A DNA stretch of 64,000 bases, taken from assembly GCA_003054695.1 (NCBI GenBank), contig QAZA01000039.1, positions 310,001-374,000 on the forward strand, given 5' to 3'. Under the pieces are notes generated by a model. It was given only the letters and a program-made list of their open reading frames with translations. It did not search any database and had not been told where the DNA came from. Within the stretch, counting starts at the first letter, position 1; every line of letters starts with the position of its first letter. Of this stretch, positions 19,515-51,011 are shown piece by piece. Made by a program: the position numbers and the translations under genes. This stretch comes from Verrucomicrobia bacterium LW23. Its GTDB lineage: Bacteria > Verrucomicrobiota > Verrucomicrobiia > Methylacidiphilales > UBA1321.

Positions 19515-20840
19515 ATGGTATGTAACGGCAGCATCAAAAACTATAATTTCATGAGTATCAAGAATAAGGGCATCCCCGCGCCGCTGCCCCGCATCGCCCG
19601 CTTTGAGGAACTGGGCTACGGCATGTTTATCCACTGGGGCCTCTACTCTCAACTGGGATCGGGAGAGTGGGTGATGGTGCAGCGGGGTATACCTTCGGCT
19701 GAGTACAACCGGCTTCTGCAATCCTTTACCGCCGATGACTTTGACGCTCGGGCATGGGCGCGGCTGGCGAAGGCGGCGGGTATGCGGTACATCACCCTTA
19801 CGACGCGGCATCACGAGGGCTTCTCGCTGTACGATACGCACGGGCTCTCTTGCTTCGACGCGCCGCACTCGCCCGCAGGCAGGGATCTCGTGGCGGAGTT
19901 TGTCCAGGCTTGCAACGAGGAGGAAATCGTCCCCTTCTTTTACCACACCACCATTGACTGGCAGTGGTTTACAGACATGACGTGGCCTCCGGCACCGGAT
20001 GGCGGGCCGAACTTTGCCGAGTACCTGGATTATCTCCACGCCTCCGTAGAGGTGCTGTGCACGCAGTACGGCCCCATCGGCGGGCTGTGGTTTGACGGTA
20101 ACTGGGCGCACCCCGATGCGGACTGGCGGGAAGATCGCCTCTACGCGCTTATCCGCAGACATCAGCCCGAGGCGATGATCATCAACAACACCGGCCTCGA
20201 TTTCCGCGGCGCCAAAGGTCATCCCGAGATTGACAGCACCACCTTTGAGCAGGGACTGCCGACCATGCCGGACCGTCGCGGCTGGCCCAAATACCTGGCC
20301 GGGGAAATGTGCCAGACGATGAACGCGCACTGGGGCCTCGGCGACAAAGACCTGAACTACCTCTCGCCGGCGCAGATCATCGAGAACCTCTGCCTCTCCC
20401 GCAAAGCCGGTGCCAACTACCTCCTCAACGTCGGCCCCACGGCGCAGGGTGGTATTCCCGCGTACGAAGCAGCGGCACTGCGCCGCGTGGGCGATTGGGT
20501 GCGCATCTTCGGCGGCGCCATTTACACCGCAAAGCCGGTGCCGGAAATCCGCTGCGCCGGCCAGGACTTTGTGCTGAAGGCAGGATCGAAGCACTACTAC
20601 TTCGCGTTCAACCTCCCCATCAAGGGAAACGAGCACGTGACGGTAGGCGGCAGCAGCCGGCCCGGTTTGCGCGCTTTTAGCGGATTGAAGGCGGAGCTAC
20701 GCTCGGCCCGCTGGCTGGATGTGGAGGAAAAGCTGGCCTGGACGCAAGACGCCACGCGAGGCATCGCCGCGCTGGATTGCACACCATACCCGTACGGCAC
20801 GCAGCTCGTGGTTCGGGTAGCAGAGCTGGAGACGGTATGA
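19515..20840 (+). CDS. Alpha-L-fucosidase, GH29
   Basis: Up to 441 residues; ATG 19551 (MSIKNKGIPAPLPRIARF) is an equally good start and no RBS decides. GH29 landmarks: FEELGYGMFIHWGLYSQLG at the N-terminus, YITLTTRHHEGFSLYDT, and GGLWFDGNW with the nucleophile Asp. The enzyme releases terminal alpha-L-fucose with retention. There is no signal peptide, so it probably acts on oligosaccharides already imported. It is the first gene of a two-gene operon and overlaps the GH36 gene by ATGA. A candidate operator lies just upstream, so expression is probably under the LacI regulator at 24227 (inference). The C-terminal beta domain appears short compared with many GH29 enzymes. Confidence 0.93.
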   Translation: MVCNGSIKNYNFMSIKNKGIPAPLPRIARFEELGYGMFIHWGLYSQLGSGEWVMVQRGIPSAEYNRLLQSFTADDFDARAWARLAKAAGMRYITLTTRHHEGFSLYDTHGLSCFDAPHSPAGRDLVAEFVQACNEEEIVPFFYHTTIDWQWFTDMTWPPAPDGGPNFAEYLDYLHASVEVLCTQYGPIGGLWFDGNWAHPDADWREDRLYALIRRHQPEAMIINNTGLDFRGAKGHPEIDSTTFEQGLPTMPDRRGWPKYLAGEMCQTMNAHWGLGDKDLNYLSPAQIIENLCLSRKAGANYLLNVGPTAQGGIPAYEAAALRRVGDWVRIFGGAIYTAKPVPEIRCAGQDFVLKAGSKHYYFAFNLPIKGNEHVTVGGSSRPGLRAFSGLKAELRSARWLDVEEKLAWTQDATRGIAALDCTPYPYGTQLVVRVAELETV

Positions 20841-23056
20841 TTGAGTTATTGGCCGAGATTACGCTGGGCAGCCTCGTCGCCCGCTACGTCCAGCCCGCAG
20901 GCACAGCGCGCTGCGAGCTGCACCTGCTCCCCATCTCGATGGTGGACGAGACTGTTGCGCCGCGCCGCACCCTGGAGGATCGCCCGGAGATCCTGGGCCT
21001 GCCACAGAAGTTCAAGCCGATCGACGCCATTTCCCCCGGCAGCCTCGTGCATCTCAAGCTTCAGCAGGATGACACTGGCTATGGCTTCGCCTCGGGCGTC
21101 ACCATGGCGGAAAGCGCTACCATGTTTACGCTGGCCTACGAGGGCATACAGGTGAAGCGCCCCGCACCCACGCCGATCTCTCCCGCCGGCAAGGGCAGCG
21201 CCACGGTGGTAGAAACTACGCTGCGCGACACCGCCAGCCGCTTCCGCTGCATCCATCGCCTGCACTACACCCCGGGGGAGCCCGGAGTGCGCAGCAGCAC
21301 GGAGTTCGTCAACGAGAGCAAAGACGCCCTCTCGCTGGAGCTGCTGACATCGTTTGCGCTCAATGGGTTAACGCCCTTTGAGGCAGGCAGCGCCACACCG
21401 CACCTTACTTTCCATCGCTTCCGCTCATGGTGGAGCCTGGAGGGGCGGCAGGATTCCGCCGGCCTGGAAGTGCTGCACATGGAGCGCTCCTGGGGCGGTT
21501 TCGGACTCTTTAGCGAGCGCTTTGGGCAGGTGGGCACCATGCCGGTGCGTCGCTGGTTTCCCTTTGCGGCTGTGGAGGATACGACGCATGGAGTCGTCTG
21601 GGCCGCGCAGTTGGCCTGGGCGGGCTCCTGGCAAATGGAGCTGATGCGCAAAGGAGACCGCGTCACCCTGTGCGGCGGGCTGGCGGATCGCGAGTTCGGC
21701 CATTGGGTCAAACACATCCAGCCCGGAGAGTCGTTCCACACGCCGGAAGCGCTGCTGACGGTAGTGGCCGGCACACTGGACGATGCATGCCAGGCACTTA
21801 CCACCATGCAGCGAGGCGCGCTGGAAATCTCCGCACCTCCCGTGGAGGCCGGGCTGCCCATCTGCTTCAACGAGTGGTGCACCTCCTGGGGCAACCCGAC
21901 GCACGACAACGTCCTGGCCATCGCCAGGCGCCTGCAAGGCTGCGGCGTGCGCTACATCGTTATAGACGACGGTTGGGCCGTGCGTCCGCCGGATGCCCTG
22001 CTGCAAAGCAATGGCGACTGGATTGTCGATGAATCGAAATTTCCCGGCGGCCTCAAGCACACGTGCGATGCCTTGCGCAGCATGGGGTACATCCCCGGCA
22101 TCTGGTTTGAGTTTGAGGTGATCAACCCCGGCGCCACAGTGTGGAACGAGACCACCCACATGGTGCAGCGCGATGGACGACCTCTCCAGGTAGGCTCCCG
22201 CCGCTTCTGGGACTTTACCGACCCGTGGGTGCACAACTACCTCTTGGAGAAAGTGATACGCCTGCTGAAAGAGAACGGCATCGGCTACCTTAAAGTGGAT
22301 TACAACGACAACCTCGGCATCGGCTGCGACTGCGCCGACTCGCTGGGCGAGGGCCTGCGGCGGCACGTGGAGGGCGTGCAGCGCTTCTTCCACCTGCTGC
22401 GTCGGGAAATCCCGGACCTGGTCATCGAGAACTGCTCCTCGGGCGGCCATCGGCTGGAGCCCTCCATGCAGGCGCTCGCTTCCATGGGATCGTTCTCCGA
22501 CGCGCACGAGCCCATCATCATCCCCATCGTTGCGCGCAATCTCCAGCGCCTCATCCTACCGCAGCAATCGCTGATCTGGGCCGTGCTGCACCCCTCTGAC
22601 GACGAACCGCGCCTCATCTTCTCCCTCGCCGCCACCTTCCTGGGCCGCATGTGCCTCTCCGGCGAAATCCACGACCTGCACCCGTGGCAGCTGGACGCTC
22701 TGCGCCAGGCAACGGCCCTGTACACCAAAGCCGGGCCCATCGTCAGCCGCGGCACATCGCAGTTCTACGGCACGCCGGACAACAGCTACGTCGATCCTCT
22801 CGGCTGGCAGGCCATCGTCCGCACGTGGGAGAACAAGGCCCTTGTCGTCGCGCACAGCTTCAACCAGAAGAGTGAGTCGGCCGGTGACGATGACGGCAAG
22901 CTCACCACTCTCAGCATCCCGCTGCCTTTTTCAGATGCCAGGATTACGGATTCCCTGGCACCGCAATTCGCCTCCGCGTCCGTGCAGAAAGGGCAGTTCA
23001 CGTTCCGCCTGCCGCCCGGTTGCCAGGGCGGCGTCTGGCTTATGCAGACGGGCTAG
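20837..23056 (+). CDS. Alpha-galactosidase-like glycoside hydrolase, GH36
   Basis: A 739-residue enzyme starting at the ATG that overlaps the GH29 stop, so the two are translationally coupled. The N-terminal 340 residues form the beta-supersandwich. The barrel begins ICFNEWCTSWGNPT and continues YIVIDDGW, GIWFEFEVINPG, the nucleophile in GYLKVDYNDN, ENCSSGGHRLEPSM and the acid/base Asp in SFSDAHE. All catalytic residues are present. GH36 enzymes remove alpha-linked galactose (or transfer it) with retention. No signal peptide is seen, so it is cytoplasmic. Paired with a fucosidase, it suggests an oligosaccharide carrying fucose and galactose, such as a xyloglucan-type side chain. Its stop codon lies inside a repeated 33-bp sequence. 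Confidence 0.92.
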   Translation: MIELLAEITLGSLVARYVQPAGTARCELHLLPISMVDETVAPRRTLEDRPEILGLPQKFKPIDAISPGSLVHLKLQQDDTGYGFASGVTMAESATMFTLAYEGIQVKRPAPTPISPAGKGSATVVETTLRDTASRFRCIHRLHYTPGEPGVRSSTEFVNESKDALSLELLTSFALNGLTPFEAGSATPHLTFHRFRSWWSLEGRQDSAGLEVLHMERSWGGFGLFSERFGQVGTMPVRRWFPFAAVEDTTHGVVWAAQLAWAGSWQMELMRKGDRVTLCGGLADREFGHWVKHIQPGESFHTPEALLTVVAGTLDDACQALTTMQRGALEISAPPVEAGLPICFNEWCTSWGNPTHDNVLAIARRLQGCGVRYIVIDDGWAVRPPDALLQSNGDWIVDESKFPGGLKHTCDALRSMGYIPGIWFEFEVINPGATVWNETTHMVQRDGRPLQVGSRRFWDFTDPWVHNYLLEKVIRLLKENGIGYLKVDYNDNLGIGCDCADSLGEGLRRHVEGVQRFFHLLRREIPDLVIENCSSGGHRLEPSMQALASMGSFSDAHEPIIIPIVARNLQRLILPQQSLIWAVLHPSDDEPRLIFSLAATFLGRMCLSGEIHDLHPWQLDALRQATALYTKAGPIVSRGTSQFYGTPDNSYVDPLGWQAIVRTWENKALVVAHSFNQKSESAGDDDGKLTTLSIPLPFSDARITDSLAPQFASASVQKGQFTFRLPPGCQGGVWLMQTG

Positions 23057-23104: not shown

Positions 23105-23201
23105 CCCTCTTGGCGAAACTTTCTGCCCTTGGCGATGTTATCTGAAGGTCCGTAGATCCAAGGCAGATAGTATCGCCAAGGACGGAAAGTTTCGCCAAGG
23201 G
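23105..23201. repeat. Long imperfect inverted repeat
   Basis: The arm 23105-23143 pairs with 23165-23201 with only a few mismatches and a one-to-two base bulge; both arms carry TTGGCGAAACTTTC or its complement. In RNA it would fold as one long hairpin with a 21-base loop. Confidence 0.7.
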
Positions 23202-23429: not shown

Positions 23430-23463
23430 TCCTAAAATAGATCCTTGCCGCAGCACTAGCCCG
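23430..23463 (-). repeat. 33/34-bp repeat, copy 3 (inverted)
   Basis: The complement of copy 1. It covers the stop codon of the GH39 remnant at 23456-23458, so the two outer copies embrace the stops of two convergent genes. Confidence 0.8.
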
Positions 23464-23971
23464 GCTTACTCGCGACGCGAAGCCGGATCATTCGGTTGGG
23501 CTGCTGACGGGCTGTGATATCACCAGCTCCACGGCCCAGGCCGTAGCGCGCGACGCAGTGCTCGGTAAAGCGACGCACCAGCTCCTCCCACTTGTCCCAG
23601 TCCTTGGGCGGCAAGCCGTTGCCCTTCCACCAGAACACCGTGGCGCGGCGCCGTGCGAGGTCGCCGGGGCAGAACGCAAGCTCGACGAAAGGCTTCACGC
23701 CCATGTCGAGCATGCGGTCAAAGACGTCATCGACATACTGCCAGTTCCAGATTTCCACTCCCTTCTGGACGCGGTAGACAAACATGTCGTCGTGAAAGAT
23801 CCCGTGGAATCGCACGTAGCGGAAGCCGGCGTGCAGCCGGGCGCTTGCCAAATGCTCCAGCCAGCCGGCGCGCAAAGCTTCATTCGCACGGCCCGCGCCG
23901 ACGCAGAGGCTCCAGGTATGGCGCAGCGGAGTTCCGGGCGACTGCACGTTTGCAGAAAGGGTCGGTGTCAT
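23456..23971 (-). pseudogene. GH39 beta-xylosidase-like gene with large internal deletion
   Basis: The first about 140 residues are a convincing GH39 N-terminus: HTWSLCVGAGRANEALRAGW, YVRFHGIFHDDMFVYR, WQYVDDVFDRMLDMGVKPFV, VFWWKGNGLPPKDWDKW, stopping at HCVARYG, just before the WEVWNEPNL-type acid/base motif. Sequence then continues LGRGAGDITARQQP. In the +1 frame the same DNA reads AVELVISQPVSSPTE-stop, which looks like a natural GH39 C-terminus. So roughly 300 internal residues are missing and the join changed the frame. Both catalytic glutamates are absent, hence it is inactive. The family normally releases xylose. It is convergent with the GH29-GH36 operon. Confidence 0.8.
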
Positions 23972-24226: not shown

Positions 24227-25294
24227 ATGATCAAATCCGTCCCACCGCGTATTACCCTCAAAGAGCTGGCCGTGGAGGCGAAACTGAGTGTCGCCGCCGT
24301 CTCAATGGCGATGCGCAACCACCCGCGCATCGCCAAGACAACCTGCGAGCGGGTTCAGGCGCTGGCCAAAGAGCGGGGATACAGGCCCGATCCAACGCTC
24401 TCCGCTCTCGTGGCCTACAGGCAGAATCAGCAGGTGCGGCCCACCGGATGCAAGATTGCCATCGTCCACTTTGCCCCGGCAGGCTTGGTGGTGCCGGATC
24501 GCGAAAAGCGCGACGAATTCAGCGGGATAACGGAATGCGCGGAGAAGCTGGGCTACGGCTACGATCTCTTTTCCGCCAGCCCGGACGAGGCGGAGCAGGC
24601 CCGAGTGCTGCGAATCATCCGCAACCGCGGCATACGCGGCATCATCTTCCAGTTTATGGATGCGGAGCCGGCGCAGCTTAAGGCCAACTGGGGCTTTGTG
24701 GCCGCCATCGGCATCGGAATCATCGCCCGCCATTCCACGCTGCCGCTGCCCACGGTCTCCGCCGATCACATGCAATGCGCGTACGATTGCATGCGGCAAC
24801 TCGGCAAGCTGGGCTATCGGCGGCCTTCTCTGGTCATGCCGGCCTCCTTCCCCATGCCTTTGCGAACGGAGATTTTAGGCGGATATCTGGCCGGACTGCG
24901 GGAGTGCCCCGGTAAACCGAAAGCAGCCGACATCACGGTGAATTTTCTGGACGAGGCGTGGAAGCCCCAGCTCTCGGCGCATTTGCTGCAAAAAAAGCCC
25001 GATGTCCTCATCAGTGCCGGCCGCGCCACCACACTGCCACATTGGTTGGCATTAGCTCACCCGGATCTGGTCGAAACGCTTAGCCTGTGCACTCTGGACG
25101 GCGGAGCCGGTGACACCCGCACGAGTGGAATGGTTCAGGACCGGCGAGGTGTGGGCATTGTGGCGATGGAGACGCTGTACAAGATGATTCTGGCCAACAT
25201 TACCGGCCCCTTCGAGCGGCCGCAGTCGATCCACATCCCCGGTTTTTGGCAGGAGGGAAAAACCCTCCTTCTTGCACGGAAACAGTGCCGATAA
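24227..25294 (+). CDS. LacI-family transcriptional regulator
   Basis: A 355-residue protein of normal length. Residues 7-60 are the LacI helix-turn-helix and hinge region: PRITLKELAVEAKLSVAAVS, MAMRNHPRIAKTTCERVQAL, GYRPDPTLSAL. The rest is the periplasmic-binding-protein-like effector domain (IAIVHFAPAGLV, RGIRGIIFQFMD, KLGYRRPSLVMPAS). It should bind a palindromic operator and be released, or recruited, by a sugar. Two GCTTAA/TTAAGC palindromes lie in its own upstream region, and similar ones precede four other units in module A, so it is the natural candidate for their control (inference). It is followed by the Verru_Chthon operon 147 bases downstream. Confidence 0.93.
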   Translation: MIKSVPPRITLKELAVEAKLSVAAVSMAMRNHPRIAKTTCERVQALAKERGYRPDPTLSALVAYRQNQQVRPTGCKIAIVHFAPAGLVVPDREKRDEFSGITECAEKLGYGYDLFSASPDEAEQARVLRIIRNRGIRGIIFQFMDAEPAQLKANWGFVAAIGIGIIARHSTLPLPTVSADHMQCAYDCMRQLGKLGYRRPSLVMPASFPMPLRTEILGGYLAGLRECPGKPKAADITVNFLDEAWKPQLSAHLLQKKPDVLISAGRATTLPHWLALAHPDLVETLSLCTLDGGAGDTRTSGMVQDRRGVGIVAMETLYKMILANITGPFERPQSIHIPGFWQEGKTLLLARKQCR

Positions 25295-25441: not shown

Positions 25442-26089
25442 ATGAAACAAATCCGCCGCCACAAGCCTCGCAGCGCTTTTACACTTATCGAGATCCTCGC
25501 CGTAGTGACGATCATGGGCGTGCTGGCGGCGGTTGCTGTCCCGGCCTTTCGTGGTGTCTCCACGTCCACCAACCTGGTTAACGCCGCCACAATGGCAACG
25601 GGGATGATTAATCAGGCCAGAATTTACGCGATTGCACAGAATACGCAAACCGCGGTCTACTTCTGCGAAACCTGGGCGGACAGCCAGGATAAGCCGCTGC
25701 GTGTTGCCTCCACCTGGCACTGGGACGCGGATAGCGCGGCCTGGAAGCAAACGAGCAAATGGGAAACACTCCCTGCAGGCGTTGTATTTGAAAAAGAGAG
25801 GCCGGCCGAAGTTGTGGAAGCCGGACACTACTACGCCATGGATAAGGCCGAACTGAACAACGGAAAATCTATAGTGGTAAACGGGCATAACGTGGATGTT
25901 GTCGAAATACGCTTTAACTCTCTTGGCACGGTAATTGTACCTTCTACGACGAAGAACATTCAGAAGCTGAGCCTGCGCCTGAGCACCGGTTTTATTGCCA
26001 ATGGAGTACACCAGAAGACTCAGAAGGATAATTGGGTAGATGTCTCCATCAATGGTCTCACGGGCCGCGTTAACTTCGCCCAGCGCTAA
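25442..26089 (+). CDS. Verru_Chthon cassette protein D (pseudopilin)
   Basis: A 215-residue product starting at ATG 25442 (an in-frame open stretch goes back to 25325 but has no protein character). The N-terminus is a class III prepilin signal: basic leader RRHKPRSA, then FTLIEILAVVTIMGVLAAV with Glu at +5 for prepilin peptidase processing and methylation. The remaining globular domain has strands such as NVDVVEIRFNSLGTVIVPS and ends DVSINGLTGRVNF, as in GspH-like minor pilins. It fits the D member of the four-gene Verru_Chthon cassette known only from Verrucomicrobia; the function of the cassette is unestablished. First gene of the D-B-C-A operon. Confidence 0.85.
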   Translation: MKQIRRHKPRSAFTLIEILAVVTIMGVLAAVAVPAFRGVSTSTNLVNAATMATGMINQARIYAIAQNTQTAVYFCETWADSQDKPLRVASTWHWDADSAAWKQTSKWETLPAGVVFEKERPAEVVEAGHYYAMDKAELNNGKSIVVNGHNVDVVEIRFNSLGTVIVPSTTKNIQKLSLRLSTGFIANGVHQKTQKDNWVDVSINGLTGRVNFAQR

Positions 26090-26120
26090 TAGTTATCTCC
26101 TCCTATAAGCGATCTATTGT

Positions 26121-26732
26121 ATGAAGACTTCCTGCTCGGACGACGTGCTGACTGGGCCGGCGGGGTGGCAGTTTCCAGGGAGGGGAGATCGCCGGAAGCC
26201 GCAAAGTGGAATCCGAGGCCTCTCGCTGGTGGAAGTTGTTCTTGCCATGGGGGTTCTGGCTTTTGTCCTTGTTTCCCTGATGGGGATGATGGCTCTGGGG
26301 CTGAAGACGTATAGGGATTCTGCGGATGAAAGCTTGTGTGCGTTGATTTCGCGGGATGTAAAGGACAGGTTGAACAGTTACTCCTTTACCGCCGAAGATG
26401 TTTCCGCCACCCAGCCTTCACCCTTTAATCCTGCAAATCCTTTACCCCTGCGGCTTGCCTTTTATTACAATGAGGAAGGCCTCTTCCTCGGCACCACATA
26501 CACGCCGGCCGGGGGTGATGCGCAGTACCGGGCAGAGGCGGTGATAGATCAGGTGGATGCGCAATTATCAGATAACGTATCTTCAATGATGTTGCGCGGT
26601 GTTGTTCTTACCGTCCAGTGGCCCATTAATCCAGCTACAGGCTTACCCCCGGCGGGATCAGTAAACGCGAGGCGTTACTCCTTCCTGCTTAGCAAAGGCA
26701 TACATATCAACTCTCTGGAAGGGATAAAATGA
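26121..26732 (+). CDS. Verru_Chthon cassette protein B (pseudopilin)
   Basis: A 203-residue protein with an unusually long 32-residue leader (MKTSCSDDVLTGPAGWQFPG, then RRKPQSGIRG) before the pilin helix LSLVEVVLAMGVLAFVLVSL. The Gly before the cleavage site and Glu at +5 are both present. The globular part includes VSSMMLRGVVLTVQWPIN. It overlaps the next gene by ATGA, so the two are translationally coupled. It corresponds to the B member of the Verru_Chthon cassette. Like minor pseudopilins of type II secretion, it should be inserted in the inner membrane and cut by a prepilin peptidase encoded elsewhere. Confidence 0.85.
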   Translation: MKTSCSDDVLTGPAGWQFPGRGDRRKPQSGIRGLSLVEVVLAMGVLAFVLVSLMGMMALGLKTYRDSADESLCALISRDVKDRLNSYSFTAEDVSATQPSPFNPANPLPLRLAFYYNEEGLFLGTTYTPAGGDAQYRAEAVIDQVDAQLSDNVSSMMLRGVVLTVQWPINPATGLPPAGSVNARRYSFLLSKGIHINSLEGIK

Positions 26733-27736
26733 ACGTGCGTTATCGTGCAGGCCGAGCGGGGTTCAGCATTGTGGAGCTGTTGATGGTAACAGCTATATTG
26801 AGTGTCCTTACTTTGGTTCTTGTACAGATGGTAACGGGTGTAAGCAAGCTATGGAAGTCCGGACATGAGCGAGCGGATATGTACCAGACAGGAAGAGCTG
26901 TACTGGAGATGATAGGCCGTGAAGTGCAACAGGCAGAGGCCCGCCCGCCTAACATCATGAACAGCGTTAAGGAAAGGTTTGCCAGCACGCCGCTGGTGAT
27001 TAATCCTCCGCTTCCTGCGTCCGCGCAGCCGCTCAAGGATTCCAGTAATGTACCGATGGATTCACTTTTCTTCTATGCTCCGCTCCAGGTAACAGGCAAA
27101 GGTGCACTGGTATCGATAGGCTTCTTTGTCAATACAAACCACGAGCTATGCAGGCTCTCCGTTGACTCAGCCAACACTACGTACCCCAAGATGGCTGCGG
27201 GAAACTTTAATGATCCGTCGAATGTAAACAATTACCTCTACAATACTTACGAAACTGCGCAGCGTACTCTGAAGGAAAGCGCTTTTATGAAGCCCGTGGC
27301 GTGGCTTCTGGACGCGAGCTCCCAGCCTGCATTTACGGATCCCGCCGCGGTATCTGTTGTTGCGAATCGCATCATCGGCTTCATCGTCAGAGGTATAGAT
27401 CGTAACGGAAATCCTTTGCCCTCCAGCCTTTTGCCCAGCACAGCCCCTGTGTATTCCGCCGGCTCCGTTAATGTAAACCGCTCCTTTCTTAGCGCATGGT
27501 GGCCTGTATCGGATGAATTGCCAAGCGCGATTGAAGTGACGCTGATTATTGCAGAGCCGTCCGGCTATTTAAGATTAAAGCAGAGCGGTCAGCTCCCTGT
27601 CCTTAAAGTGCCGGCTAGCAACTCTGATGCTGATATCCAGGCAGCGCTTACTGACATAAAGGCGCGCTTGCTTAACAAGATGGACAATTACGTTATTGTC
27701 ACCAAAAAATTTCCACTGGCCCGAGGAACCCGATGA
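26729..27736 (+). CDS. Verru_Chthon cassette protein C (pseudopilin)
   Basis: A 335-residue protein. The leader NVRYRAGRAG is followed by FSIVELLMVTAILSVLTLVL with the prepilin Glu at +5. Its length and mixed alpha/beta body (QTGRAVLEMIGREVQQAEAR, DSLFFYAPLQVTGKGALVS, PSAIEVTLIIAEPSGYL) resemble the GspJ type of minor pseudopilin and match cassette protein C. It begins inside the end of gene B and ends inside the start of gene A (ATGA at 27733), so B, C and A are made from one message with coupled translation. Confidence 0.85.
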   Translation: MNVRYRAGRAGFSIVELLMVTAILSVLTLVLVQMVTGVSKLWKSGHERADMYQTGRAVLEMIGREVQQAEARPPNIMNSVKERFASTPLVINPPLPASAQPLKDSSNVPMDSLFFYAPLQVTGKGALVSIGFFVNTNHELCRLSVDSANTTYPKMAAGNFNDPSNVNNYLYNTYETAQRTLKESAFMKPVAWLLDASSQPAFTDPAAVSVVANRIIGFIVRGIDRNGNPLPSSLLPSTAPVYSAGSVNVNRSFLSAWWPVSDELPSAIEVTLIIAEPSGYLRLKQSGQLPVLKVPASNSDADIQAALTDIKARLLNKMDNYVIVTKKFPLARGTR

Positions 27737-30700
27737 AAATGCTGTCGCACAGCAATCACCACCAAAAGCGTGCGGGCTTCGCGCTTGTCCTGACGCTATG
27801 TGTACTGACTCTGATTACTATCATGGTAATCGGCTTCATCATCACTTCGCGTTTTGACCGCGTTATAGCGCAGGGTTATGCCAATGCTGACCGCGTCACT
27901 CTCGTGGCGGAATCCGCCGTGGACCACGCCAGGGCGCTGCTCGCTACCAGCATCCCGGAGGTGGGTCCCAATGCTCCCGCGGTCCCTGTCAACTGGTGGT
28001 GCGCGCCCGGCAGGCTCTGGACGCAGACCGGCAACGATGCACCTCAAATCTACAACCTCTACAGCGGCGACGCGACCACAGCCGCCGACGGTCCGGATCT
28101 GAACCGCAGGAAGATTGACGGGACCTACCCCATCGAGCCCACCGGCAAGCCGATGCGCGTGAAGTGGATCAACGTGGGCGAAGACCCCGGCAAGCCGGTC
28201 TCCCTCACCAATCCCGTCGTTGCCCGCTTTGCCTACTGGATCGACGTGGAAAACACACGCGTCAACCTGCGCTATGGCAAGATGAGCCAGGGAGGCAAAA
28301 TCAGCCTTACGCCGACCAGGCTCCCCTTCATCAACGCGCTGCCCGTCTCTTCCTTTAAAGGCGGTAGCGGCTTCGACGGCATTGCGCCGGGCCATCCGTC
28401 TTGCAGCGACCTCGCCGTCTTGGCGAATGCCAACGACATATTGGGCACTGCGTTTGGCGGGGGAGGACCGCTTCGACTTTCCGAAGTGAGCGAATTCAGC
28501 GAGTATTTTTCCAACCAAACCGCGTGGAAGAATTTTTACACCGCCAATCAGTTCCAGATCTCCGCCTCGGGCCAGTCACCGGAGTTTAGCCCCTTCGGCG
28601 TCAGCCGGATGACGGCGGGGCTGGAGGGGCGCAACAAGATGTTTGCCGGCTACCAATACTATTGGGATCTGGAGAATCCCAGCATACTGCCGCTCGGAAA
28701 CTTTACCCTCAGGAACGTTCCCGGAGATAACACCACAACATTCTACGAGCTCGATTATGTACGAGCGTCCGTGCGCCAGCTTGCGAACGCTTTCCTCAGC
28801 ACGGAGTGGCCCGGGTATGCGGGCACCAGCCTGGTAGCAAAGTGGAAGGCGCGCGCGAACATGCCTGCGGCCGATTCAAACAAATTTGCCGAGCAGGTGG
28901 CCTGGAATCTTCAGGGTCTCAACACTTACCAGTACCGCGAGTTTGCAGACATGATAAGCCTGGGAAATGTGGGAAGAGCTGCGGCAGGAACGAATGCGCA
29001 AGGCCTCTTCGTGCGCAACCTCATGCCCAGCGTACTGAAGACTCCTACCAATGGGAGATATTATCCCCAGAACGGCGTTCCCTACGTCACCGAGCTCGGC
29101 ATATGTGTGGAACGCGCCGCAACACCAAACGCACCTATGTACATAAGCCTCGTGGGCGAGCTCTATGTGCCGCCCGGCATCCGGTCGGTAGATCAGGCTG
29201 ATGTCAGAGATAAAGGTATAACTGTAGGAGATCCAGGGATCAATACCGGCATGTATATTATCCCCACCACCGTAGACCTGTTGGTGAATGGAGTCAGGCC
29301 GTCAGGAATCCCGCTGAATCCTGCGAATCCAATTGATACCTCATATAAAACAGCCGGCCGCCTGACCACAAGCCCCGGCACGGGCAAAATGGGAGGTCTG
29401 GACTCCACCCCCACGGTCAACTACCTGGTGCTGGAAAGCTCAAGCGGTCCCACCCCGGCGACTCCTGATACGCGTATTACTGTTCCTGTTCCTGGTTCAC
29501 CTGCGGGCATCAACTTCAGCGACATCAGGCTTAAAGCAATTGCTATACGTTCGGCTACCAACAACAACACGATAGATGCGAATCAGCTTATCGTACAGTA
29601 CTGCCCGCTTTATACCAGCGATCCTAACGCAGCCGGAATTCTTTACCCATCGCCTCAAAGCGACACCATATCGCTCGATAACTTTACCTACACCCCAGGG
29701 AGTGGTAAGCAATATTACACAGTGGAAGTATCCGATCCACGCCGCTCTGCGCTGAGCGACGCGTGGACCACCGCCACAACCAATGGAACTGCACCCAGGC
29801 CCGGCAAAAACACCCTGGGAGCCGCAAATGCAAACTGGAGCAGCGGCATGCCGGATATCCGTACCCCGGCCAGGCATTCCCTCGCCGGTGCGGCCACCCC
29901 AGCCGGTGGCGCAGGTTATTACCCTGCCAACCCGGACGCCAAAAACACTTCGTTCTATACTCCAGGATTCTGTGCCGCTTTATGGACAGCGCCGCCCTAC
30001 GTTGTTCCAGCTACCGGGGATTGTTATCTCAATCTCACCAAAACCGATACTGCACTCCCGCCGGACTACCTTGTGTTGGAGCTGCTGAATACAACTTGCG
30101 GTCTCTCCTCCGGCAACATGCAGGGCACTGTCAATATCAACTCCGGCATCTTCCCCGGCTACTTTGGTATCCCGCCACGCACTAAGGCTATAGAAGCGCT
30201 GCTCAACCGCTGGTCTGTGGGCGGAACCAACGTTCCCGCTGCCACTATAGCTTCTACTATTGCGGGTAGATTCAATGATCCCACGTTCACAGGTTATCCC
30301 TATCGTGGTGCTATTATTGCGGATCTGGACTTTAGTGAAACGCTCCCCCAGCTCCAAAGGCAAAGCCTTATCGTCACCCTGGCCGGCCGCCTCGCCACTC
30401 AAGGCACCGACTTTGGCGTCTGGGGTGTGGCGCAGACGGTGAAACAGACGGAGACCGGCGAGATCATCGTGCAGGGGGAGCGCCGCTTTTACAGCATGGT
30501 GCAGGCTGGGCCGTTTACGGGCGTGGACGGCAATCTGGGCAATGCGCGGGTCAATGCAACCGGCAGCTTTATTGAGAGCATCCCGTATACGGATGGAAAA
30601 CTCTACGGCAGCATGCGGGACAGCATTGATGGACCCGACGCGGTTCCCCTCCCATCGCACGGCAATTATGTGACGCCTGTCGATAAAAGCAGTCCCGGAT

Positions 30701-30780
30701 CCAAGCTTCGCGAGGCGTTCAATCCGTTGAAGCCGTACATGCAATACAAGACGGCTTACTTCAAGTTTCTGGAGCCTTAG
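27733..30780 (+). CDS. Verru_Chthon cassette protein A (very large GspK-like protein)
   Basis: A 1,015-residue protein. It has a basic N-terminus (HSNHHQKRAG) and then FALVLTLCVLTLITIMVIGF; there is no Glu at +5, as in GspK-type tip pseudopilins. The following SRFDRVIAQGYANADRVTLV and VAESAVDHARALLATSIPEV resemble the GspK/PilX start (AESA motif). The rest is a long extracellular region, rich in Pro, Asn and Thr, with no domain I recognise. By analogy with GspK it may cap a pseudopilus tip; its size suggests it also binds something outside. Last gene of the operon. Confidence 0.85.
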   Translation: MKMLSHSNHHQKRAGFALVLTLCVLTLITIMVIGFIITSRFDRVIAQGYANADRVTLVAESAVDHARALLATSIPEVGPNAPAVPVNWWCAPGRLWTQTGNDAPQIYNLYSGDATTAADGPDLNRRKIDGTYPIEPTGKPMRVKWINVGEDPGKPVSLTNPVVARFAYWIDVENTRVNLRYGKMSQGGKISLTPTRLPFINALPVSSFKGGSGFDGIAPGHPSCSDLAVLANANDILGTAFGGGGPLRLSEVSEFSEYFSNQTAWKNFYTANQFQISASGQSPEFSPFGVSRMTAGLEGRNKMFAGYQYYWDLENPSILPLGNFTLRNVPGDNTTTFYELDYVRASVRQLANAFLSTEWPGYAGTSLVAKWKARANMPAADSNKFAEQVAWNLQGLNTYQYREFADMISLGNVGRAAAGTNAQGLFVRNLMPSVLKTPTNGRYYPQNGVPYVTELGICVERAATPNAPMYISLVGELYVPPGIRSVDQADVRDKGITVGDPGINTGMYIIPTTVDLLVNGVRPSGIPLNPANPIDTSYKTAGRLTTSPGTGKMGGLDSTPTVNYLVLESSSGPTPATPDTRITVPVPGSPAGINFSDIRLKAIAIRSATNNNTIDANQLIVQYCPLYTSDPNAAGILYPSPQSDTISLDNFTYTPGSGKQYYTVEVSDPRRSALSDAWTTATTNGTAPRPGKNTLGAANANWSSGMPDIRTPARHSLAGAATPAGGAGYYPANPDAKNTSFYTPGFCAALWTAPPYVVPATGDCYLNLTKTDTALPPDYLVLELLNTTCGLSSGNMQGTVNINSGIFPGYFGIPPRTKAIEALLNRWSVGGTNVPAATIASTIAGRFNDPTFTGYPYRGAIIADLDFSETLPQLQRQSLIVTLAGRLATQGTDFGVWGVAQTVKQTETGEIIVQGERRFYSMVQAGPFTGVDGNLGNARVNATGSFIESIPYTDGKLYGSMRDSIDGPDAVPLPSHGNYVTPVDKSSPGSKLREAFNPLKPYMQYKTAYFKFLEP

Positions 30781-30863
30781 AACTGTCGTCCAGCTCTCAC
30801 AGTCTCCTCAATCCTGCAAACTTTCTTTGGGATTCCGCTAGCTCGGATCCTCTCTCCTTGCTT

Positions 30864-32300
30864 ATGTCTGGAAACCCGGAACCAACTACGCCTGTCGCTA
30901 CACAACAGGCGGCTACCTATAAAGCAAGCGACCGCGAGATTTACATCTGGGGCACCAGCCAGATTACGAACGGATTGATAGGTACGCTAGGGACAAATAT
31001 CACGGTTTTCTTCAACACAACTCTGGGGCTGGATGCAGCCCTTATCGGCATCGCCACGCTTATCCCCCGCATTCTGGATGCGATTACGGATCCGCTGATG
31101 GGGCACATATCGGACAACACGCACACGCGCTGGGGGAGGCGTCGTCCCTACATCCTCATCGGGTCCATCCTTACGGCAATAACCATGGCGGGGATGTGGT
31201 GGGCGTCGCCGGGGTGGTCGCAGCCTGCGCTTTTTGCCTGGCTGGCGATCGGTCTGCTGACGTTTGGCGTGGCCAACACGATTATCCAGGTACCGCTGGA
31301 GGCACTTGGGCTGGAGCTTACCGATGACTACCACCAGCGTACCAAGATCCAGAGCGTCAAATTCTTCTTCGGCGCGGTTCTGGGGCTGGGAATCCCCTGG
31401 ATTTACTGGCTGACGCTTCGGCCAGAGTGGGGTGGGGAGGTCTATGGTTTCCGAGGCGTCTATTTTGTTATCGCCATCCTTATTGTTGTTTTCGGCCTGC
31501 TGCCGGCGATTTTCTGTCAGGAACGATTCCAGCGCTCCAACGAGAAGCCGGAGAGTATCTATGAAGGTATCAAAACGGCATGGCAGAATAAATACTTTCG
31601 CCAGATAGTCTACTTGCGCCTTACTAATGCTATTGCCGCCACCATTACAGCCGGCATGTATGTCTACATCAATATCTACTACATCTGCCAGGGAGACAAA
31701 GTACTGGCGATGGAGTTGGCCGGCATCGGCGGCACCATGTACAGCGTCATGACGTTTGCCTTTCTCTTCTGCATCCCCTGGCTGGGACGAACATTGGGCA
31801 AGCGCACCTCCATGCTTATCGGTTTCGGGCTTCAGGTGGCGGGGATGATGCTGAACCCGTGGCTCCAGACTCCCGAGAACCCGTATCTGCAACTGGTGGG
31901 CACGGCGCTGGCGGTGCCTGCGGGTTTGATGGCCAACATTTTTGTCTCCTCCTTTATGGCCGATGTGTGCGATCTGGGCGAGGTGCAGTCCGGCCGCCGA
32001 ATGGAGGGCACGTACGGTGCGGTGTTTGGCTTTCTCTCCAAGATCGAGTATTCGTTGCTGGCGGTGGTTGTTGGTTTTCTCGTCAGTTTTTCCGGCTTTA
32101 ATCCTGCCCTGCCGCAGCAGCCTGTGGACATACAGAACAACATTCGCTGGCTTACGTATATACCTGGCTTCTTCTTTATCTGCCTTACGTTCTGGTTTGC
32201 ATGGCGCTTTGAGGTAGACCACAAGCTTATGCAGGAAGCCAGAGCAACACTGGATGCACGCCATCGCGCGAAGGCGGATAAAGCATCAGAGGCAGATTGA
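30864..32300 (+). CDS. GPH-family (MelB-like) sugar:cation symporter
   Basis: A 478-residue membrane protein with twelve hydrophobic segments. Family landmarks include an N-terminal YIWGTSQITNGLIGTLGTN, the cytoplasmic loop DPLMGHISDNTHTRWGRRRP between helices 2 and 3, and ADVCDLGEVQSGRRMEGTYG in the second half, typical of the glycoside-pentoside-hexuronide:cation symporter family. It moves a sugar across the inner membrane using sodium or protons. ATG 30864 is chosen; TTG 30858 is in frame. It stands 83 bases after the pseudopilin operon and 122 bases before the GH28 gene. The substrate cannot be read directly, but the context suggests pectin- or hemicellulose-derived oligosaccharides. Confidence 0.92.
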   Translation: MSGNPEPTTPVATQQAATYKASDREIYIWGTSQITNGLIGTLGTNITVFFNTTLGLDAALIGIATLIPRILDAITDPLMGHISDNTHTRWGRRRPYILIGSILTAITMAGMWWASPGWSQPALFAWLAIGLLTFGVANTIIQVPLEALGLELTDDYHQRTKIQSVKFFFGAVLGLGIPWIYWLTLRPEWGGEVYGFRGVYFVIAILIVVFGLLPAIFCQERFQRSNEKPESIYEGIKTAWQNKYFRQIVYLRLTNAIAATITAGMYVYINIYYICQGDKVLAMELAGIGGTMYSVMTFAFLFCIPWLGRTLGKRTSMLIGFGLQVAGMMLNPWLQTPENPYLQLVGTALAVPAGLMANIFVSSFMADVCDLGEVQSGRRMEGTYGAVFGFLSKIEYSLLAVVVGFLVSFSGFNPALPQQPVDIQNNIRWLTYIPGFFFICLTFWFAWRFEVDHKLMQEARATLDARHRAKADKASEAD

Positions 32301-32347
32301 GTAAACACACACACACGCACCAGCCTTCTCTGCGTCTCATCCGTATA

Positions 32348-32363
32348 GCTCAATAGTTTAAGC
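32348..32363 (+). promoter_or_regulatory. Candidate LacI-family operator upstream of the GH28 operon
   Basis: GCTCAA-TAGT-TTAAGC matches GCTTAA-N4-TTAAGC at 11 of 12 positions and lies 59 bases before the ATG at 32423. Confidence 0.6.
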
Positions 32364-32422
32364 ATCGCTAAGGATGCCTTTGCGCCTTCTTCTGGAATAC
32401 TAACCTACAGCATTTCTCTCTC

Positions 32423-33805
32423 ATGATTACCTCGCACCTTCCCCCACTCGACGCACCGCAGCACTTTGCCCGGGCCCTGTCCTCCGCGCCTGCCTCCCCT
32501 GAGACCACTGGGCAGGCAGCGGAAAGCCCCGTCTACCGCGTCACGGTCAACGGAGTTGCTGCAGAAGTAATCCATACCGCAGCGGCCGCGATCGTAAGGC
32601 CCTTGGTTGCCGGTCCCGCACACGTCGTGGTCACGCACCATCGCCGCGTGGCAACGGCCATCGTCCGGCCGCTTCGGCACAAAATCGCGGTAGATATCGC
32701 CGGCTGCACGCTCAGCTTCCGCATCCCGGGCGCGTGCCATCTCAGCGTGGAGATAGACGGGGATCTCGCCTATCCGCTGCTCATCCTCGCGGAGCAGGAG
32801 ACAGAAACGCCGGAGCCAGCTAACACGGCGGGTGTCATCCTTCTGCTGGAGGGGACTCATGACGCGGGCGGCCTGGAGCTGAAGAGTGGAAACGTGCTCT
32901 ACCTCGGCCACGGCGCGCGCCTGCAAGGCTATATCCACCTTCGGGGGCTTAAGGATGTGTCGATCCTAGGAAGCGGCATCCTCGACGCCGTGGCTGCGGA
33001 TGAATCAGGCCCCAACAATACGGCCATCCTTCTCGACAACTGCGAGAACATACTGATAGACGGGCCGCTGGCCTTCATGCGCGGCGCCTGGGGATGCATC
33101 GTGCGTCGCAGCCGAAACGTCGTTATCCGCAATCTGAAGCTGGTAGGCCACGAAAAATGCAGCGACGGCATTGATGTTGATGGAAGTCATCGCGTCAAAG
33201 TTTCGCGCTGTTTCATCAAGAATAACGACGATTGCCTGTGCATCAAGTCGGCACCGCCCGCAAAGGGTGCCTCAGTGGCCGATATCGAGTTCTCGCATTG
33301 CACCCTGTGGAATGGACAAGCCGGCAATGGCATCGAGTTCGGCTACGAATCGCAAACCGACTCTTTCCGCAATATCACTTTCCGCGACATCGACATTATC
33401 CACGTGGAATCCGAAGCGAGTGGTGGCTGGATTGACCGTCTCGCCGGCCTCTCCATGCACATTACCCACGATGCCCACGTCGAGAACATCCTCTTCGAAA
33501 ATATAACGCTGGAAGACGTGCAGGTGCCCAAGATTATCCAGTTTACTACGTTCCATTACTATCGCGAGCACGGCTGGTTCAGCCCCGCAGACAGGCTGGC
33601 CCGTGGCAAGATAAGCAATGTACGCCTTCGCAACATCCACTTCCTCAAAGTAGCCGAGCCCCGTATTCACATTGAAGGCTTCAACGGACCGGATGATATT
33701 GAGAATATCAGTTTTGAAAATGTAACGGTGGAGGGCATCAATATTCTCCATCGCACTGATCTTGTGCTTGAAGTGATAAATACAAAGAACCTGCACATTG
33801 AATAG
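32423..33805 (+). CDS. GH28-like polygalacturonase family protein
   Basis: A 460-residue protein. The first 130 residues are a beta-rich domain. A right-handed beta-helix follows: DVSILGSGILDAVAADESG, NVVIRNLKLVGHEKCSDGID, and VKVSRCFIKNNDDCLCIKS. The SDGIDVDG and NNDDC segments hold the catalytic aspartates of GH28; in classical enzymes a GHG and RIK motif follow, and here these are replaced (QAGNGIEFGYES), so the substrate may be unusual. GH28 enzymes hydrolyse galacturonan or rhamnogalacturonan. There is no signal peptide, so it is probably intracellular, acting on imported oligomers. It heads an operon with an amidohydrolase and a Rieske protein. Confidence 0.85.
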   Translation: MITSHLPPLDAPQHFARALSSAPASPETTGQAAESPVYRVTVNGVAAEVIHTAAAAIVRPLVAGPAHVVVTHHRRVATAIVRPLRHKIAVDIAGCTLSFRIPGACHLSVEIDGDLAYPLLILAEQETETPEPANTAGVILLLEGTHDAGGLELKSGNVLYLGHGARLQGYIHLRGLKDVSILGSGILDAVAADESGPNNTAILLDNCENILIDGPLAFMRGAWGCIVRRSRNVVIRNLKLVGHEKCSDGIDVDGSHRVKVSRCFIKNNDDCLCIKSAPPAKGASVADIEFSHCTLWNGQAGNGIEFGYESQTDSFRNITFRDIDIIHVESEASGGWIDRLAGLSMHITHDAHVENILFENITLEDVQVPKIIQFTTFHYYREHGWFSPADRLARGKISNVRLRNIHFLKVAEPRIHIEGFNGPDDIENISFENVTVEGINILHRTDLVLEVINTKNLHIE

Positions 33806-40986: not shown

Positions 40987-42519
40987 ATGTCCAAGCGGAC
41001 CAACATTCTGCTTATCACGAGCGACCAACAGCACTGGAATACGCTTGGGAAGCATCAGCCGGAAATCAAGACGCCCAACCTCGACCGCCTGGCTGCCGAG
41101 GGCATGTTGTTCAAGCGCGCCTATTGCCCGAATCCGACCTGCACGCCGACGAGGGCATCCCTCATCACCGGACAGTATCCCAGCATGCACGGCGCCTGGG
41201 CGCTGGGCACCAAGCTGCCCGAGTCGGCCGTGACGATCGGAGAAGCGCTTGGCAGGGAGGGCTACGGGACGGCCCTCATAGGCAAGGCCCACTTTCAGCC
41301 GCTGCGAAACACCGAGCAGTGGCCGTCTATGGAGTCGTATCCGTTGCTCAAGGACGATGCATACTGGGCTGGTTTCCATGGGCCGTTTTATGGCTTCGAA
41401 CACGTCGAGTTGACCCGCAATCATGGCGACGAATCCCATGTCGGCCAGCACTATGGCCTTTGGATGCGCGAACGGGGCCTGACCGACTGGGAAAAGCATT
41501 TCCAGACCTCCTGGCAGGAGTTCGATTATTCGGAGGGCGAAAGCAATCCGCCGCAATTCGGGCCTTGGACGCTGCCGGAGGACTACCACATGAATGCATG
41601 GATAACGGAGCGCACGGCCGCTTGGTTCGACCGGTGCAAAGAGGAGGGGCGTCCCTGCTTCGCGTGGGCCAGCTATTTCGATCCGCATCCGCCCTACCTG
41701 GTCCCGGAGCCCTGGGCCTCGATGTATGATCCCAGCAAGCTTACCGTCCCCGCGGCGACCCCGGGCGAGCATGACGACAGCCCGCCCTACATCCGGATGA
41801 CCCAGCAGGAGAATCCCGATTTTGCCGGGTTCGACGAGACCGGGCACCGGCCCCACGGATTGGGGTGCCACCTGCAGTGCAGGGAAAAGACCGCCCGCGA
41901 GCTGGCGCTCTATTACGGCATGGTCAGCATGATGGACCGCTACATCGGCCGCCTGATCGACCATCTTGAAAAGATCGGCGAGAAGGAAAACACGCTGATC
42001 GTCTTCACTAGCGACCACGGGCACTACATCGGCCACCACGGGTTGATCGCCAAGGGCCCGTTCCATTACGAGGACGGTGTCAGGGTGCCGATGATCGCCA
42101 GCTGGCCGGGCCGCATCCCCGCCGGCGTGGAAAGCGACGCCATCCAGTCGCTCGTGGATCTGCCGGTTTCCTTCCTCAAGGCCGGCGGGGCCCAGGTGCC
42201 GCCCGTCATGCAGGGGGTCGACCAGCTGCCGGTGTGGACCGGCGGCGGGACGCCCGCCCGGGACCATGCGCTCATCGAGTTCCGCGACCAGCCGACCGCG
42301 CTGCACATGCGGACGTATGTGAATGACAGATACAAACTGACGGTCCATTGCCGCCGGGACTACGGCGAGCTCTACGACCTGCGGGAGGACCCCGGGGAGA
42401 TCCGCAACCTCTGGGACCGGCCGGAACATCGCGCGCTCAAGGCGGAGCTGATACGGAAAATGGTGGACGCCGAGATGGCCCGTGAGCCGATGTGGATGCC
42501 CCGCGTTTCCTTCGCATGA
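40987..42519 (+). CDS. Sulfatase (type I, formylglycine-dependent)
   Basis: A 510-residue alkaline-phosphatase-fold enzyme. The N-terminus NILLITSDQQHWNTLG carries the metal-binding Asp. The active-site signature is CTPTRASLITGQYPS, where the Cys is converted to formylglycine. The second metal site is in VFTSDHGHYIGHHG, and the C-terminus has the usual sulfatase beta domain (LYDLREDPGEIRNLW). It removes sulfate esters from sugars. No signal peptide is visible, which is unusual for polysaccharide sulfatases and may mean cytoplasmic action or a missed start. An anaerobic or FGE-type maturase must exist elsewhere. It opens module B and lies 107 bases before an SGNH hydrolase. Confidence 0.94.
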   Translation: MSKRTNILLITSDQQHWNTLGKHQPEIKTPNLDRLAAEGMLFKRAYCPNPTCTPTRASLITGQYPSMHGAWALGTKLPESAVTIGEALGREGYGTALIGKAHFQPLRNTEQWPSMESYPLLKDDAYWAGFHGPFYGFEHVELTRNHGDESHVGQHYGLWMRERGLTDWEKHFQTSWQEFDYSEGESNPPQFGPWTLPEDYHMNAWITERTAAWFDRCKEEGRPCFAWASYFDPHPPYLVPEPWASMYDPSKLTVPAATPGEHDDSPPYIRMTQQENPDFAGFDETGHRPHGLGCHLQCREKTARELALYYGMVSMMDRYIGRLIDHLEKIGEKENTLIVFTSDHGHYIGHHGLIAKGPFHYEDGVRVPMIASWPGRIPAGVESDAIQSLVDLPVSFLKAGGAQVPPVMQGVDQLPVWTGGGTPARDHALIEFRDQPTALHMRTYVNDRYKLTVHCRRDYGELYDLREDPGEIRNLWDRPEHRALKAELIRKMVDAEMAREPMWMPRVSFA

Positions 42520-42626
42520 CGCCGGCCGAAACGCGGTTATCGCCGCGTTCCATGCGGATATCGGACGGCGAATCGCTTTCACCCTCAAACACGTCAACGC
42601 ATAGCCCAGCCCTGTCTGTCACCGCC

Positions 42627-43319
42627 ATGAGCACGCAGTCTTTTTCCAGCGAATCGTTCTACACCCCCGCCGAGGACATCAGCGGGTTGAAGGCCGGGAC
42701 CGAAAAGCGTCCCGATCTGCCGAACGTGCTGCTGATCGGAGACTCGATCTCCGTGGGCTACACGCTGCCGGTCATCGAGCGCCTGAGGGACACGGCGAAC
42801 ACCGAGCGCGCTAAGGCCAATTGCGGCGACACCCTCGCGGGCCTAAGGAATCTGGAAGCCTGGCTGGGCGACACCCGCTGGGAGGTGATCCATTTCAACT
42901 GGGGCCTGCACGACCTCTGCTATCGCCATCCCGATGCCAGGGCCTACGGGCACCGGGACAAGATCAATGGCACTGTCTCGGTGCCGTTGGACGAGTATGT
43001 CCGGAATCTGGAAAGGCTGGTCGGCCGGTTGCGGCAGACCGGCGCGAAGCTCATCTGGGCCAGCAGCACCTGCGTGCCCGAGGGCGAGGCGGGCCGTTAC
43101 GCGGGTGATGAAATCGTCTACAACGAGGCGGCCGCGAAAGTGATGCGGGCGCACGGCGTGCCGGTTAACGATCTCCATGCGGTCAGCCAGCGATTTGGCG
43201 CGGCGCACTGGTCGTTGCCCGGAGACGTGCATTTCAGCAAGAGCGGCTCCAATTTGCTGGCCGACCAGGTCGTCGCGGCCATCCGCGAAGTCCTGGCGGG
43301 TCTGCCGAAGAAATTCTAG
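42627..43319 (+). CDS. SGNH/GDSL-type esterase
   Basis: A 230-residue protein. Block I is VLLIGDSISVGYT with the nucleophile Ser, block II Gly lies in CGDTLAGLRNL, block III is HFNWGLHD (His in place of Asn), and block V is GDVHFSKSG with the Asp-x-x-His pair. Such enzymes deacetylate sugars in many polysaccharide clusters. ATG 42627 was chosen; an in-frame stretch back to 42492 overlaps the sulfatase end and looks non-coding. No signal peptide. It probably removes acetyl groups from the same substrate as the sulfatase (inference). Confidence 0.9.
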   Translation: MSTQSFSSESFYTPAEDISGLKAGTEKRPDLPNVLLIGDSISVGYTLPVIERLRDTANTERAKANCGDTLAGLRNLEAWLGDTRWEVIHFNWGLHDLCYRHPDARAYGHRDKINGTVSVPLDEYVRNLERLVGRLRQTGAKLIWASSTCVPEGEAGRYAGDEIVYNEAAAKVMRAHGVPVNDLHAVSQRFGAAHWSLPGDVHFSKSGSNLLADQVVAAIREVLAGLPKKF

Positions 43320-43379
43320 CGTTCGCGCAAGGCGCCGCCCGTCCGGTGCGCGTTCTTTCTCAATCTCCCGCGTGTCCGG

Positions 43380-45005: not shown

Positions 45006-45128
45006 ATCCGCTAATGCTAACAATGCATTGCAGACTGAAAAGCGAGTTGGTTCCGACTCTTATCTGAATACCCGCCCAGACTCAAGGGGGGACCTGGTCG
45101 CGTCGTTCAAATCGCCGGAAACCCGACT

Positions 45129-45572
45129 TCAGGTTGCCAGATAGACGCGTCCCTTGCGCAGCATCGTGCCGGCCGCCGCGTTGCTCTCCGCGTCGACCAA
45201 TCCGTCCGCCGGAATCTCGACGTCAGCAAACGCCCAGACGACGGACTCCTTGCCGTCCGCATCCAGCCAGACGACATGCGTGCCGCCCCGCTGCAAACGG
45301 GGTCGCACCATGCGGGCCATGAAACCGTTGTAGAGATGGTTCACGCGGGCGTAGCCCTCCGCGAGATCCCCGCCCGGCAACTGGACCCCGGCCGGCGGAA
45401 GCCCCCACGGATCCGCCTTGATGAGCGGCACGCGGCGGTGGGCGACCATCCAGAAATAGCGGTCCGGACACAACATGCCGGGGGCGAGGTAGTTTTTGCC
45501 TCCCGCGAAAAACCCCGACCAGCGGGTCACCACCACCACCGCCGACCTGGCGGACACCAACTCGGACCACAC
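45129..45572 (-). CDS. Hypothetical protein, possibly the C-terminal part of a lost enzyme
   Basis: A 147-residue frame from GTG 45572, which follows a stop codon directly. It has protein-like sequence (FAGGKNYLAPGMLCPDRYFW, GYARVNHLYNGFMARMVRPR, THVVWLDADGKESVVWAFAD) ending KGRVYLAT. I do not recognise a family. It sits between the sulfatase and the alpha-galactosidase-like gene on the same strand, so it is probably in that operon. The lack of a natural N-terminus suggests a truncated gene. Confidence 0.5.
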   Translation of the reverse strand: MWSELVSARSAVVVVTRWSGFFAGGKNYLAPGMLCPDRYFWMVAHRRVPLIKADPWGLPPAGVQLPGGDLAEGYARVNHLYNGFMARMVRPRLQRGGTHVVWLDADGKESVVWAFADVEIPADGLVDAESNAAAGTMLRKGRVYLAT

Positions 45573-45655
45573 CTACCGTCCCGGAGACTCGACTCCGGTC
45601 TTCACTCCGGTCTCCACGTCCGAGCCGAATCTTCTGCGCTGCCGGAGGAGGCCGC

Positions 45656-50607: not shown

Positions 50608-51011
50608 GATGGGGATGCCTGAGATTGACTGTGTTATGTGGATCCGTACGTCGCGCGCACGCGAGAGGTCGGTTTTGGCCGGGAAGGAAGGACGTTGGGT
50701 GCGGATGTTCGGTATTATCACGTGCGCGTCCCGGAGGGATCGGACCGTCCGTGCGACGCGTGCCTGAAGGAAACGGTCTCGACGAACGGACGCAGGTGAG
50801 CACGGGGGATGACGAGGGGTATGCGCCACCGTAGCCGATCCCCGCTCCCGCCACCAAGGGATTCAGATGAAACACACATTGGGGGGCGTCAGTGCCGGTC
50901 AAACGCGGGACCGCGGGATGAGACACATATAGGATACATGAACCTTCCGCTCGCTACCGGTCCCATTTCTTGGTGGATTAGCGCAGCCCCCTGCCACCCC
51001 GACGACACCGC

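Follow-up and report, generated by a model that had tools for sequence, protein, structure and literature searches.

The window analyzed here is a 64,000-nucleotide stretch of contig QAZA01000039.1 of Verrucomicrobia bacterium LW23 (positions 310,001 to 374,000), and its subject of interest is a cassette of four adjacent, co-directional genes, D, B, C, and A, flanked by a LacI-family regulator and a sugar symporter (Table 1). The products of D, B, and C carry prepilin signals with glutamate at position +5, which the giant A protein lacks. Genes B and C share an ATGA overlap at 26729-26732 and genes C and A another at 27733-27736; D and B are separated by 31 nt. These signals, overlaps, and flanks, which a preliminary description of this DNA had reported, are read directly from the sequence, the prepilin signals from the protein sequences of the window. 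A major pilin, an ATPase, a platform protein, and a secretin are all without a gene in the cassette. A further prepilin-type N-terminus occurs about 2.5 kb past the end of the window (G000 C39:376535-376600, G000 being the LW23 genome).

The cassette family already bears a name in NCBIfam, Verru_Chthon; no paper under the Verru_Chthon cassette name was found in the literature searched. The best NCBIfam matches of the four adjacent genes are to the D, B, C, and A families in turn, namely TIGR02596 for D (3e-12; 46.9 bits, cut-off 70), TIGR02598 for B (2e-9; 37.9 bits, cut-off 51.4), TIGR02599 for C (2e-15; 56.9 bits, cut-off 256.5), and TIGR02600 for A (4e-14; 51.4 bits, cut-off 332.3), but none of the four proteins reaches the curated cut-off. 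In the 6.6 Mb genome (56 contigs), the A model gives 51 matches that were resolved into 32 A genes, which BLAST groups into a canonical class 1 (17 genes), a class 2a (eight, including that of the window), and a class 2b (seven). Profile-profile comparison of class 2a with class 1 aligned A over 878 columns (E 7e-64), C over 276, D over 190, and B over 128, each with a probability of at least 99, some of the class-1 B and D sets being mixed as a result of sorting by motif. Such long matches indicate that the window cassette is a distant homologue and not a chance set of pilins. The label "Verru_Chthon cassette" that it had been given thus stands on best matches, homology, and its occurrence in Verrucomicrobiota, but it requires the qualifier "divergent class", since all four proteins fall below the cut-offs; the gene order, D-B-C-A, also differs from the B-C-A-D common in class 1. 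What is new is the divergent sub-cut-off class, its gene order parallel to gspHIJK, the number of copies and of classes within a single genome, and the statistical association with regulators of the sugar type.

The parallel order emerges from comparison with the type II secretion system (T2SS). A single T2SS operon (L073) is present in the genome. It includes D, E, F, G, H, I, J, and K, with its minor pseudopilins ordered H-I-J-K; it is located on another contig than the cassette, which is therefore not encoded with a T2SS machine. The T2SS operons of relatives, where readable, also have their own minor pseudopilins. The T2SS profiles match those of class 2a one to one, K with A, I with B (111 columns), J with C (107 columns, a near-tie with a mixed B profile), and H with D, so that D-B-C-A is colinear with gspHIJK. 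The profile matches and gene order support reading D as GspH-like, B as GspI-like, C as GspJ-like (with the near-tie just mentioned), and A as GspK-like, and they back the GspHIJK-like identity proposed earlier. The pattern of three prepilins with Glu+5 and a last protein without it is likewise common to both sets. In contrast to the T2SS genes, however, GspK is about a third as large as cassette A, motor, major pseudopilin, and secretin genes are not found alongside, and the copies are many. Substitution of the cassettes for missing T2SS HIJK genes was considered and rejected, because the T2SS operon carries its own. By eye, two short motifs of A (consensus ESxKxNxNTA and GxxNxN) resemble LNIN and LDIN of the genome's GspK.

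About 20 of the roughly 32 A genes stand in complete four-gene cassettes and the remainder are partial or solo, as counted with a simple gene caller and a motif filter and with L060 taken as complete though its C has Asp at +5. All A matches of the genome are open frames without stops. Once the N-terminal part is removed, distances between cassettes for A and for C are correlated in class 2a (Mantel r 0.72, p 0.0015) and in class 1 (r 0.46, p 0.004); A and C are co-inherited. Between two close relatives, the ratio of nonsynonymous to synonymous substitution rates (dN/dS) of all four cassette genes is 0.04-0.09, which falls inside the spread seen for adjacent genes and T2SS genes; as judged from these sequences, the relatives' orthologous class-2a cassettes, from which the values were obtained in place of the window cassette itself, are under purifying selection. 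The class-2a order D-B-C-A is kept in family relatives wherever all parts were called; at one of their loci (L142) D, C, and A were called, and at another (L145) B and C were not called and the interval between D and A contains a LacI gene. A window-type A is also present in a cultured relative, Chthoniobacter flavus Ellin428 (L102). A fifth gene of about 100-300 aa follows A in six of the seven class-2b loci (L055, L056, L058, L059, L060, and L061), and one of a different family with a VDELNP-like motif occurs in four of the eight class-2a loci (L049, L052, L053, and L054). The proteins are mostly secreted-looking, the four tested had no Pfam match, and none follows A in the window. Pairs of prepilin-type genes also occur away from the 32 A genes (G000 C9:217-218k, C21:132-134k, C50:331-332k, C53:49-50k, C45:982-984k, and C2:49-50k) and are possibly further cassettes whose A escapes the TIGR02600 model.

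The cassettes are linked to regulators of the sugar type. LacI-like genes account for 12/126 genes within two positions of the 32 cassettes of this genome, against 2/170 at four or more positions in the same loci (p 9e-4) and 1/334 in 20 control regions (p 1.2e-6), which were hand-chosen away from cassettes before their content was seen. If the 45 LacI matches were placed at random, about two of the 32 cassettes would be expected to have one nearby and 12 were observed; the binomial value of 2e-7 is only indicative because the distance limits were set after the data had been seen. The same holds for 59 loci of other Verrucomicrobiota (13/201 near, 3/258 far; p 0.002) and for family relatives (8/53 near, 2/60 far; p 0.03), two sets that are not independent since they share loci (e.g., L082/L145 and L086/L141). 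Loci L055 and L035 each have a neighboring GntR-type regulator with a sugar-binding-like domain, and L048 has a neighboring AraC regulator. Among class-2 cassettes, a LacI, GntR, or AraC regulator lies near eight of nine complete and one of six incomplete ones (p 0.011), by hand assignment and with L054 counted, whose LacI is three genes away. Carbohydrate-related families recur in the Pfam tally near cassettes, whose leading entries are LacI, Peripla_BP, Beta_helix, BNR, GH28, polysaccharide deacetylase, and GntR; in the control regions no family has more than two members and none of these leaders appears, in each case among the 25 families listed. The neighbors of cassettes elsewhere, for which a survey had been suggested, are thus non-random. 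Across the 40 genomes compared, cassette and LacI counts have a partial r of 0.41 given genome size, a value of little weight, as the counts are lower bounds and shared ancestry confounds them.

The window cassette itself adjoins genes for sugar uptake and breakdown (Table 1), and inspection of their N-termini found no recognizable signal peptides in the flanking sugar enzymes. The earlier suggestion that the cassette secretes substrate-specific proteins finds no local support in the window. The G+C content of the cassette, symporter, and GH28 gene (25442-33805) is 0.51-0.58 against 0.62 for the whole window, which may be a signature of acquisition; that of most other cassettes is ordinary. 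Upstream, a GH39-matching fragment of 171 aa at 23456-23971 on the minus strand is possibly a remnant, and a 36-nt inverted repeat with 89% complementarity lies near it (23109-23199). Further downstream, positions 40987-56738 hold three sulfatases, a GDSL hydrolase, and two large proteins with hydrophobic N-termini (one with FlgD_ig, the other with CBM9 plus FlgD_ig), which suggests another polysaccharide locus.

Table 1. The four-gene cassette and its neighbors (positions counted from the first nucleotide of the window).
Feature	Position	Strand	Remarks
Gene D, GspH-like minor pseudopilin, 215 aa	25442..26089	+	Prepilin signal SA/FTLIE, Glu at +5
Gene B, GspI-like minor pseudopilin, 203 aa	26121..26732	+	Prepilin signal RG/LSLVE, Glu at +5
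Gene C, GspJ-like minor pseudopilin, 335 aa	26729..27736	+	Prepilin signal AG/FSIVE, Glu at +5
Gene A, giant GspK-like protein, 1015 aa	27733..30780	+	AG/FALVL, Leu at +5 instead of Glu
LacI-family regulator	24227..25294	+	PF00356, PF00532; 147 nt between its end and D
GPH/MFS_2 sugar symporter, directly after A	30864..32300	+	PF13347 1.7e-69; TIGR00792 197.8 bits, cut-off of 231.35 missed
GH28 enzyme, rhamnogalacturonidase-like	32423..33805	+	PF00295 1.4e-11; no recognizable signal peptide at N-terminus
Alpha-L-fucosidase-like enzyme	19515..20840	+	PF01120 9.8e-64
GH36-type (Melibiase) enzyme	20837..23056	+	PF02065 3.7e-31

Genes for a T2SS and a type IV pilus lie elsewhere in the genome, and the distribution of such machines among relatives bears on what could drive the cassettes. 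Cassette matches were found in 26 of the 40 genomes (LW23 and relatives), all 26 of which have a match to a PilB/GspE-type ATPase. GspD is present in 21 of these 26 and in six of the 14 cassette-free genomes (p 0.02, hand count), several of the 40 genomes being incomplete. Family f9, whose six genomes (99% completeness) are mutually non-independent, is the only family in which cassettes, GspD, and a close PilB/GspE are all absent; the PilB query matches it only weakly. Genome G023 (95% complete) has a close PilB match and cassettes, with GspD not found; G009 is likewise cassette-bearing with GspD not found, and G013 has GspD and a GspE-level match with no close PilB. From the patterns of f9, G023, and G013, some such motor seems to accompany the cassettes, and neither type alone. 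The T2SS as the sole possible motor was not upheld. A tandem pair of PilB/GspE-type ATPase genes occurs at L072:8333-11778 (G000 C9), and most relatives have the pair.

Structure prediction gave a confident fold for a homologue of A. The class-2a protein of L084 (833 aa, 33-sequence alignment) gave a model with a predicted local distance difference test score (pLDDT) of 81.8 and a predicted template modeling score of 0.84, which shows a 67-residue N-terminal helix, other helical parts, a beta-sandwich that falls within residues 403-549, and long strands at the C-terminus. In a fold search of the PDB only the sandwich was matched, by Ig-like domains from GH2 enzymes, with Z reaching 9.4 over 101 residues. 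The match is to a widespread fold and was not taken as a sign of sugar binding. Sequence searches of the PDB with two A profiles gave no match, and a Pfam scan of A at E 0.1 gave none either, a PilY1 domain included.

Taken together, the number of A genes (roughly 32, some 20 in complete cassettes) and the placement of many beside sugar-type regulators lead us to propose, at a probability of about 0.55, that the divergent minor-pseudopilin set is a polymer-specific tip, linked to a sugar locus, and driven by a motor shared with the T2SS or type IV pilus. D, B, C, and A would assemble as the tip, or as the priming complex, of a pseudopilus. With neither a major pilin nor an ATPase, platform protein, or secretin of its own, the cassette must on this proposal borrow its motor from the T2SS of the genome, from the type IV pilus, or from both. 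Each such cassette would be expressed together with its local sugar locus, in the window presumably under control of the adjoining LacI regulator, and the shared filament would thereby be given a different polymer-specific head with each cassette. The giant A protein would be the exposed binding part, a tip adhesin or receptor as the preliminary description had it, with polymer capture as its putative purpose. Extended to the phylum, the proposal would describe a combinatorial tip system of Verrucomicrobiota, in which tens of sugar-regulated HIJK-like cassettes would exchange heads for different polymers on a common pseudopilus motor, a programmable organelle for the capture or import of polysaccharides, a generalization that we regard as tentative.

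Several results weigh against a regulated, polymer-specific tip. The similarity of A to GspK is limited to about 64 N-terminal columns, a helix region common to many pilins, and the fold search with the L084 model did not list GspK, which excludes nothing. The AlphaFold2 model of the window A protein itself (eight sequences) has a pLDDT of 36 and is unusable. The T2SS already possesses its own HIJK, and seven A genes are solo, with no pilin partners nearby (L033, L039, L046, L047, L051, L056, and L058). As to regulation, the LacI-type operator pattern has two matches against 1.6 expected and none near the cassette, scans for promoters and terminators found no more than in shuffled sequence, and neither an operator nor a promoter for the cassette was found in these scans; the complete cassette of L059 has no regulator in the stretch examined, and LacI control may be limited to the sugar genes.

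The cassette might alternatively be a dedicated T2SS tip that recognizes and exports particular enzymes and binds no polymer itself. The Xcp tip complex has been described as critical for recognition of secretion substrates (PMC6211770), signal-peptide-like N-termini occur in 10/30 of the first genes downstream of cassettes against 41/277 in controls (p 0.014, with a home-made predictor), and the gene after A encodes a large, secreted-looking protein in several relatives. We nevertheless consider export somewhat unlikely, given the sugar enzymes adjacent to the window cassette, whose lack of recognizable signal peptides weakly favors capture over export of those neighbors, and given G009 and G023, which bear cassettes with no GspD found. 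That the cassettes are a general adhesion or envelope structure hitch-hiking with mobile sugar loci would fit the low G+C content of the window cassette and symporter as a recent acquisition, the horizontal transfer of pseudopilins reported in Verruconatronum (PMC13274419), and the 20 of 32 cassettes that have no LacI-like gene within two positions. The regulators are, however, concentrated directly beside cassettes (the near and far counts given above), in class 2 they accompany complete cassettes more often than incomplete ones, and most other cassettes have no unusual G+C content, all of which makes mere co-travel improbable. The cassettes could also be decaying, functionless paralogues of T2SS minor pseudopilins. 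Partial cassettes and solo A genes speak for this account, which is made very improbable by the low dN/dS, similar to that of T2SS genes, and the intact A frames.

The closest precedent for a tip exchanged on a shared motor, by analogy, may be that of Myxococcus xanthus, in which three minor-pilin/PilY1 clusters are thought to serve one machine and the authors speculate on substrate-specific tips (PMC7541494). As proposed here, several clusters would share a machine there, each combining a large head protein with four proteins of the minor-pilin type; the cassettes differ in that A itself bears a pilin-type N-terminus and in number, three clusters there against about 32 A genes here. Binding of dextran to pili-like fibers has been described in Planctomycetes (PMC5394234). 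Verruconatronum alginivorum has 67 PulG-like pseudopilin homologues, one of which is over-expressed with alginate genes (PMC13274419). It resembles the present case as a member of Verrucomicrobiota with many pseudopilin copies, one over-expressed on a polysaccharide, but its genes are single PulG-like pseudopilins and not a four-gene HIJK-like cassette. The cassettes studied here occur in many copies in polymer-degrading Verrucomicrobiota, and their correspondence to GspHIJK, their lack of a motor, and their linkage to sugar regulators yield the testable proposal that these bacteria may use them to grip complex polysaccharides or to export proteins towards them.
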